Positions 6,626 to 52,810 of a stretch of 52,810 bases of DNA are shown here, piece by piece. Origin of the DNA: Syntrophales bacterium (GTDB taxonomy: Bacteria > Desulfobacterota > Syntrophia > Syntrophales > JADFWA01); contig JAUSPI010000029.1 of the NCBI GenBank assembly GCA_030655775.1, forward strand, positions 1 to 52,810, written 5' to 3'. Position 1 is the stretch's first letter. Every line of letters starts with the position of its first letter. Made by a program: the position numbers and the translations under genes. Under the pieces are notes generated by a model, which worked only from the letters and a program-made list of their open reading frames with translations, made no database searches and had not been told where the DNA came from.

Positions 6626-6748
6626 ATGATTTTTCACCTTAAACGGGCATGTCCTCGATGTAAGAGAAATCAAATTGTTCCTGCAGACAAAAGAAAAGAG
6701 AATGTGCGTTGTAAGTTCTGCGGCGCGGCTGTGCCTCCGCGAAAGTAA
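6626..6748 (+). CDS. 40-residue zinc-ribbon protein
   Basis: A short frame starting at ATG 6626, 30 bases after the antiporter stop. It encodes 40 residues with two knuckles, CPRCKRN at residues 9-12 and CKFCGAAVP at about 29-32, the spacing of a zinc ribbon; the remainder is basic. The ribosome site is weak. Position and metal ligands make it a plausible real gene of unknown role, perhaps cotranscribed with the antiporter. It is too small for most gene finders. Confidence 0.55.
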   Translation: MIFHLKRACPRCKRNQIVPADKRKENVRCKFCGAAVPPRK

Positions 6749-6853
6749 CCTGAACGCTGTGACCCACGAGAGTTGTATCGATACTAAGCTTTAGCTCTTT
6801 TAAATGAAGGTTGCCAATTTGAAATTTTTTTCAGAGGCATTTTATTCTCGACA

Positions 6854-6992
6854 CCCTAAAATAGACATTGAAAATAAAGACTGTCCTCCCCGTCCCGTAG
6901 GACAGCCGTCTCGGCTGTCTAAGCGATTCACCATTATGGACAGGCGGGACGCCTATCCTACTGTGTTGGAAGGGTCAATGTCTATTTTGGGG
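6854..6992. mobile_element. 139-bp MITE-like element, copy 1
   Basis: The ends are inverted repeats: CCCTAAAATAGACATTGA at 6854-6871 and TCAATGTCTATTTTGGGG at 6975-6992. Inside are two GC-rich hairpins, GACAGCCG/CGGCTGTC and GGACAGGCG/CGCCTATCC, the second with one mismatch. A second copy starts at 52701 and runs off the window. No protein is encoded. It is probably moved by a transposase elsewhere in the genome. Confidence 0.75.
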
Positions 6993-7087
6993 CAGCGAGC
7001 TTTTTCTTGACAGATAACCATTTTCTATTATATGAAAATTCTCTTTTACCAGCCGAATTTTATTTATAAGGATATGGAAGACCGCCA

Positions 7088-8164
7088 ATGAAACCGACAG
7101 GAAAACAGTTCATAGCAGAATTTATCAATTGCTCAGCCGATATTCTAAATGATCAACAAGCCATTGAACGGATTTTAAGTGAAGGGATTGAGAAATGCGG
7201 GCTGAATCTCGTCAGCATAAACAGTCATAGCTTTAATCCGATAGGCGTTACATCTATCGCAATCATCTCTGAATCTCATATTGCCATTCATACGTATCCC
7301 GAAGCCCGTCATGCTTCACTGGACATCTTCACCTGCGCTGATGAATCCCAACTGTCCCTTGACATGTTGCACTTTCTGAAGGAGAAGCTCGGTCCGGAAA
7401 CGGTCAGGATAGCAGAGATTACAAGAGGAAATCCCCTTGAAATAACACACACCGATTGGATAACAGATTTTTCCGAGTCCGTAGGATTTGAAATCCGGTA
7501 CCATATTGAAGAAAAAATCCTGGACACACGGTCAAAGTATCAGCAAATCAATGTCATAAAGAATGAGACCTTCGGCAGGATGTTGTTCCTCGATGGAGAG
7601 CTGCAGATTGCGGCTGCTGATGCCCATATCTATAATCAAAGTATGGTTTCCCCCTTGATTGAGGCCGATAACAGTTTAAACAGTGTGGCAATCCTTGGTG
7701 GCGGAGACGGTGGAGTCCTTTACGAGCTTCTGAAACACAATCCCGGGAGCGTTACGCTCATCGACATCGACGAAGAAGTGATAAATACCTCCAAGAAATA
7801 TTTGAAAAATATATGTTTCGATGCTTTTGATGATCCAAGGGTTGCGATCATAACCGATGATGCAAATACTTTTCTCGACGAGAAACACACCTTCGATGGC
7901 ATTGTCTACGATTTAACGATGCATCCTGAATCATTCATTAATGTAGACAGAGAGATATATCTGGATGGAATTTTCTCAAAGATTAAAGATAATCTTAAAA
8001 TGGGTGGTGTGTTAAGCGTACAGTGCTGTTCCCAATTTGACGCGACAACGCTCGGCATTATAACCGGAATTTTAAATAAACATTTTTCTGACGTTACTTT
8101 TACAAAATCGTACATACCATCTTTCTGCGTGAGCTGGGTATTCGCATCCGCTAAAAGAACGTAA
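7088..8164 (+). CDS. Fused S-adenosylmethionine decarboxylase and aminopropyltransferase
   Basis: A bifunctional cytosolic polyamine enzyme, 358 residues. Residues 1-125 are a bacterial SpeD: the self-cleavage site is E62-S63 in ISESHIAIHTYPE, giving the pyruvoyl group from S63, with H68 and C83 (DIFTCADE) also present, so the decarboxylase should be active. Residues 135-358 are a SpeE-type Rossmann domain with LGGGDGG at 203-209, LIDIDEE at 224-230 and ITDDA at 254-258. The catalytic loop reads YDLTMHP at 273-279 instead of the spermidine-synthase DxxDP; D274 is kept but the second aspartate is missing. Human spermine synthase shows the same feature and has a SpeD-like N-terminal half. The product polyamine is therefore open. 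GGAAG precedes the ATG. Confidence 0.9.
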   Translation: MKPTGKQFIAEFINCSADILNDQQAIERILSEGIEKCGLNLVSINSHSFNPIGVTSIAIISESHIAIHTYPEARHASLDIFTCADESQLSLDMLHFLKEKLGPETVRIAEITRGNPLEITHTDWITDFSESVGFEIRYHIEEKILDTRSKYQQINVIKNETFGRMLFLDGELQIAAADAHIYNQSMVSPLIEADNSLNSVAILGGGDGGVLYELLKHNPGSVTLIDIDEEVINTSKKYLKNICFDAFDDPRVAIITDDANTFLDEKHTFDGIVYDLTMHPESFINVDREIYLDGIFSKIKDNLKMGGVLSVQCCSQFDATTLGIITGILNKHFSDVTFTKSYIPSFCVSWVFASAKRT

Positions 8165-52700: not shown

Positions 52701-52810
52701 CCCCCAAATAGACATTGAAAATAAAGTCTGTCCTCCCCATCCCGTAGGACAGCCGTCTCGGCTGTCTAAGCGATTCACCATTATGGACAGGCGGGACGCC
52801 TGTCCTACTG
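52701..52810. mobile_element. MITE-like element, copy 2, cut by the window end
   Basis: Matches copy 1 (6854-6992) over its whole visible length with few changes, including the end CCCCAAATAGACATTGA and both hairpins. Here the second hairpin is perfect (GGACAGGCG/CGCCTGTCC). The right end lies outside the window. Confidence 0.75.

Follow-up and report, generated by a model that had tools for sequence, protein, structure and literature searches.

A bacterial AdoMet decarboxylase-aminopropyltransferase fusion of the spermine synthase type in a Syntrophales genome

The bacterial proteins closest to animal spermine synthase (SMS) are mostly fusions of a class 1b AdoMet decarboxylase (AdoMetDC) with an aminopropyltransferase (APT), and animal SMS has been proposed to descend from a bacterial AdoMetDC-spermine synthase (SpmSyn) fusion (PMC12803844, JBC, December 2025). 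MBW2649524 from a deltaproteobacterium (358 aa) and MCK4773364 from Krumholzibacteria (376 aa) were expressed in E. coli; both halves were active in each case, and spermine was the main product (PMC12803844). The AdoMetDC-APT fusions of Candidatus Pelagibacter are also functional and make spermidine, spermine and thermospermine (PMC11107197). A motif rule for spermine synthases was given in the same study, with Asp at motif 2, Gly two residues further on and Glu at motif 3; the underlying sample leans towards Bacillota, as stated by its authors (PMC11107197).

The window, i.e., the whole stretch of DNA that was analysed, comprises 52,810 nucleotides of a Syntrophales bacterium (contig JAUSPI010000029.1). 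It carries a fusion gene whose product joins the published bacterial AdoMetDC-SpmSyn type and represents no new kind of system. This product is very probably a bifunctional AdoMet decarboxylase-spermine synthase. Domain order and the length of 358 aa are the same as in MBW2649524, closeness being judged by taxon, architecture and length. MCK4773364 has the same domain order and likewise joins a class 1b SpeD to an SMS-like synthase, but is longer. A 358-aa copy from a metagenome-assembled deltaproteobacterial genome (L054; 62% identical to the window protein) is, at a guess, MBW2649524 itself. In the Pelagibacter fusions, a class 1b SpeD is also N-terminal to the aminopropyltransferase, a likeness taken from their description, whereas their product is a mixture of spermidine, spermine and thermospermine (PMC11107197).

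The gene is a single uninterrupted ORF with an ATG at 7088 and a stop codon ending at 8164 (Table 1). The start is supported by the relatives, which almost always retain M1 and usually begin with MKP. Three Pfam domains were found above their cut-offs, namely AdoMet_dc (aa 9-114, E 1.6e-31), Spermine_synt_N (aa 124-174, E 7e-14) and Spermine_synth (aa 181-352, E 1e-28). Of the two halves, only the SpeD half can be called ordinary: it passed the NCBIfam class 1b model SAM_DCase_Bsu (109.2 bits versus a cut-off of 75.65), and the synthase half scored far below the cut-offs of all speE equivalog models of NCBIfam (e.g., 134.6 versus 249.55).

Table 1. Position, strand and supporting evidence of the fusion gene, its domains and its sequence motifs in the window.
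Feature	Position	Strand	Basis
SpeD-spermine-synthase-like fusion gene, 358 aa	7088..8164	+	ORF, Pfam, NCBIfam, relatives
Class 1b AdoMet decarboxylase half, aa 1-120	7088..7447	+	homologous to T. maritima SpeD 1tlu; Pfam, NCBIfam
Predicted self-cleavage site E62/S63	7271..7276	+	aligned to 1tlu; S63 in 82/82 fusions
H68, processing residue	7289..7291	+	aligned to 1tlu; kept in 81/82 fusions
C83, catalytic proton donor	7334..7336	+	aligned to 1tlu; 81/82 fusions, remaining one a gap
Synthase N-terminal beta domain, tetramerisation-type, PF17284	7457..7609	+	Pfam
Aminopropyltransferase domain PF01564	7628..8143	+	Pfam
GGGDGG, decarboxylated-SAM binding motif with D207 (published motif 2)	7697..7714	+	alignment; rule PMC11107197
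D226 (published motif 3)	7763..7765	+	alignment; Asp where human SMS has Glu
YDLTMHP catalytic loop, aa 274-280; D275 is the catalytic Asp equivalent of SpdSyn/SMS	7907..7927	+	alignment
IPSFCVSWVFA, aa 343-353	8114..8146	+	protein ends 14 residues past P344; alignment

In the chemistry of the SpeD family, S63 is the residue that is turned into the pyruvoyl group on self-cleavage. The initial annotation had named S63, H68 and C83 as retained residues of the decarboxylase. All three were found at these positions and align with the AdoMetDC of T. maritima, so that the SpeD active site is intact; Glu72 and Glu11 are present as well. In a tree of SpeD halves, which rests on 120 residues and is weak in its inner branching, those of the fusion family were split with a support of 98/98 from standalone SpeDs and from the SpeD-SpdSyn fusions L026 and L030.

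The catalytic loop of the synthase half, YDLTMHP, lacks the second Asp of the DxxDP loop that it had been said to replace; the replacement is genuine, and human SMS reads NDLTAVP at the aligned place. The asserted likeness of the IPSFCVSWVFA end to human SMS holds equally, with VPSYLELWVFY aligned to it. Past the position of P344, 13-35 residues follow in the fusion clade versus 52-83 in soluble spermidine synthases (SpdSyn) and thermospermine synthases (TspmSyn); in human SMS (3c6k), 17 residues follow the equivalent Pro, as counted from the coordinates. A chance likeness of short motifs was ruled out by the alignment and by the tree described below. Among 82 aligned fusions, D207 is kept in 78 and D275 in 79, and the motif 3 position is occupied by Asp in 51 and by Glu in 30. 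With respect to the published rule, the window protein has D207-G208-G209 at motif 2, as in spermine synthases, and D226 in place of the Glu at motif 3.

A tree of synthase halves was built from 62 rows, including SpdSyn from E. coli, B. subtilis, T. maritima, C. elegans, A. thaliana and P. falciparum as well as TspmSyn-type sequences. The synthase half of the window protein was placed in a fusion clade of 34 rows. This clade together with human SMS was split from all SpdSyn and TspmSyn-type sequences (support 100/99), human SMS being one long branch whose joining to SpdSyn (AU p 0.10) or TspmSyn (p 0.21) was not rejected. A tree holding the window protein with SpdSyn was rejected (p-AU 1.7e-59), and the separation from ordinary SpeE, for which the initial annotation had proposed phylogeny as the check, thus withstood that check. 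Ordinary SpeE shares the aminopropyltransferase fold and the catalytic Asp with the window protein, but has a DxxDP loop, a long C-terminus and a separate SpeD; it was ruled out by the AU test and by the missing DxxDP loop and C-terminal extension. In leave-one-out profile searches, human SMS scored 147.7 bits against the fusion family, 101.6 against SpdSyn and 87.7 against TspmSyn.

The combination of a SpeD with a divergent SpdSyn, yielding spermidine as the only cellular product, has a precedent in the phylum of the window organism. The AdoMetDC-SpdSyn fusions L026, L030 and L031 have the same SpeD-synthase order, but their synthase halves group with E. coli SpeE and carry SpdSyn-type loops (DSTDP/DSTEP-type) and the full C-terminal extension; they are read as a second, independent SpeD fusion. 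Spermidine was also detected with the published fusions (PMC12803844), and the window protein, as the sole recognisable aminopropyltransferase in its genome, must make any spermidine too. Nevertheless, a spermidine-only enzyme is considered improbable: the synthase half falls outside SpdSyn in the tree and in the AU test, its DLTxxP loop and short tail match SMS, and relatives produce spermine (PMC12803844).

A similarly small probability was assigned to a fusion of SpeD with a synthase for thermospermine (or for mixed tetraamines), for which the Pelagibacter fusions are the precedent (PMC11107197). D226 instead of Glu, the DLT in the loop and the higher profile score with TspmSyn than with SpdSyn (184.6 versus 160.9 bits) would fit such an enzyme, and some thermospermine was obtained with the Krumholzibacteria fusion (PMC12803844). 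However, motif 2 reads Asp-Gly-Gly, whereas most TspmSyns have Glu there, and in the assays of the deltaproteobacterial fusion, spermine exceeded thermospermine about 10,000-fold (PMC12803844). The initial annotation had suggested an unusual polyamine as a possible product. This is less well supported: the product of close relatives, spermine with some spermidine, is unusual for bacteria but already known (PMC12803844).

The AlphaFold model of the fusion had a mean pLDDT of 91 and a pTM of 0.68. Its best eight PDB matches were human SMS, the first six over approximately 370 alignment columns; SpdSyn and TspmSyn structures, which are without a SpeD half, matched over approximately 240 columns. 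The arrangement of the two domains in the model is not that of SMS (rmsd 7-8 Å, TM 0.57-0.62), and the lower pLDDT of 65-73 at residues 111-140 is in line with this difference. Human SMS (3c6k, 3c6m) resembles the window protein in its SpeD-like N-terminal half, the DLTxxP loop, the IPS/VPS...WVF end and the lack of a C-terminal extension, and is its best fold match. It differs in that its SpeD-like half is without AdoMetDC activity (PMC12803844), in the Glu at motif 3 and in the domain placement, with approximately 20-22% identity in the structural alignment. Assignment of the synthase half to the human-SMS type is supported, and the fusion enzyme probably belongs, on the bacterial side, to the lineage proposed as the source of animal SMS. 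These results serve as an independent check on the 2025 proposal that animals acquired SMS by capture of a two-domain enzyme from bacteria; the fusion clade, the absent C-terminal extension, the altered loop and the profile scores all agree with it.

In the genome of the window organism, two adjacent pairs of genes for a pyruvoyl arginine decarboxylase (PdaD) and an agmatinase were found, L142 (C56) and L143 (C200), one of them on a 3.2-kb contig that might be contamination; a route from arginine to putrescine was therefore assigned. There was no second SpeD in this genome, nor any other convincing aminopropyltransferase, a weak match on C119 (1.4e-5) being without the GGGDGG motif. Because of the putrescine route and the lack of another recognisable aminopropyltransferase, the fusion most likely performs both transfers, from putrescine to spermidine and on to spermine. 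An alternative spermidine route of the NspC type was rejected, as neither of the two PF02784 matches is NspC; one is LysA and the other a distant PLP decarboxylase. At L144:3187-4614, a PLP decarboxylase with distant similarity to LysA and N-citrylornithine decarboxylase is encoded next to an ORF that resembles ATP-grasp by eye; the two may form a small biosynthetic cluster.

Related bacteria often have SpeD proteins that were neofunctionalised (PMC10407285), and the SpeD half could in principle decarboxylate ornithine or arginine instead of AdoMet (SpeDC/SpeDA type) and so feed putrescine or agmatine to the synthase. This is extremely unlikely, given that the genome is without a second SpeD to supply decarboxylated SAM, that putrescine is already supplied by two PdaD-agmatinase routes, and that the published fusions have AdoMetDC activity (PMC12803844).

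For the bifunctional enzyme, the following course of reaction is proposed. As predicted from the conserved residues, the SpeD half would cleave itself between E62 and S63, with conversion of S63 to the pyruvoyl cofactor, and the processed half would then decarboxylate SAM. The large fragment after self-cleavage, consisting of the pyruvoyl-bearing SpeD part and the synthase, would still be one chain. In the synthase half, D207, D226 and D228 would hold decarboxylated SAM and D275 would activate the amine. Aminopropyl groups would be added to putrescine and then to spermidine to give mainly spermine and some spermidine, as was shown in close relatives. The putrescine would be made from arginine by the pyruvoyl arginine decarboxylase and the agmatinase, whose genes lie at other places in the genome. 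A dimer contact is probably made by the SpeD half as well; in human SMS, this is the role that the dead SpeD-like domain has retained. A further idea is that the fusion acts by channelling, the SpeD site handing decarboxylated SAM to the synthase site without release from the protein, and that animals, after channelling had been lost, kept the SpeD half solely as a scaffold for the dimer; this is regarded as unlikely.

Full-length relatives were carried by 14 of 155 genomes of the order, that of the window included. The other 13 were 54-62% identical to the window protein, and each was the sole match of its genome at E <= 1e-10. Among 395 genomes from the phylum, SpeD and SpeE were usually encoded separately, and a few other, distant fusions were present. 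When 84,980 species genomes were scanned, 80 loci were obtained, in Deltaproteobacteria, Nitrospirota, Stahlbacteria/WOR-3, Latescibacterota, Krumholzibacteria, Ignavibacteria, KSB1, Bacteroidales, Omnitrophota, Sericytochromatia and several DPANN archaea; single taxon placements may be binning errors, because nearly all loci are from MAGs. Full-length relatives with 41-62% identity across dozens of lineages are beyond chance. The trees of the SpeD and synthase halves both point to a single ancestral fusion with later spread, and its far reach across bacteria and DPANN archaea is apparently due to horizontal transfer. Syntrophus appears to belong to the order, and S. aciditrophicus itself is possibly among the carriers of the gene, which would open the enzyme to study in a cultured organism.

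Several loci deviate from the common arrangement. L127 and L128 (Neomarinimicrobiota) have an intact SpeD triad, with GVTMIG in place of the GGGDGG of the synthase half and Thr in place of the catalytic Asp. The SpeD triad is also intact in L114 (PVC group bacterium), in which the synthase half is degraded and the catalytic Asp replaced by Asn. These three are the mirror image of animal SMS, which has a dead SpeD half and a live synthase. On the DPANN contigs L091 (Aenigmatarchaeota, from 9309 on) and L109 (Woesearchaeota, from 5017 on), a separate SpdSyn-like aminopropyltransferase is encoded near the fusion gene, an arrangement which suggests that spermidine and spermine synthesis may be divided between enzymes.

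The neighbours of the fusion gene encode threonine synthase and a Na/H exchanger that has TrkA domains; the adjoining genes are unrelated to polyamines and no polyamine operon surrounds it. No neighbour is common to the fusion family except within small groups of loci. A search against Rfam gave no RNA regulator upstream of the gene, the sole match in the window being a tRNA elsewhere. An element of approximately 140 bp, bounded by terminal inverted repeats of 25 nt (CTCGACACCCTAAAATAGACATTGA / TCAATGTCTATTTTGGGGCAGCGAG), is present in two copies, one just upstream of the fusion gene (6847-6999) and one at the right end of the window (52706-52810). It is probably a MITE or REP-like repeat, because approximately 40 genomic places match it (46 match rows, most of them 87-99% identical). 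At 6627-6749 on the plus strand, an ORF of 40 codons (MIFHLKRACPRCKRNQIVPADKRKENVRCKFCGAAVPPRK) with two CxxC pairs was recognised by eye, and its product is possibly a small zinc-ribbon protein.
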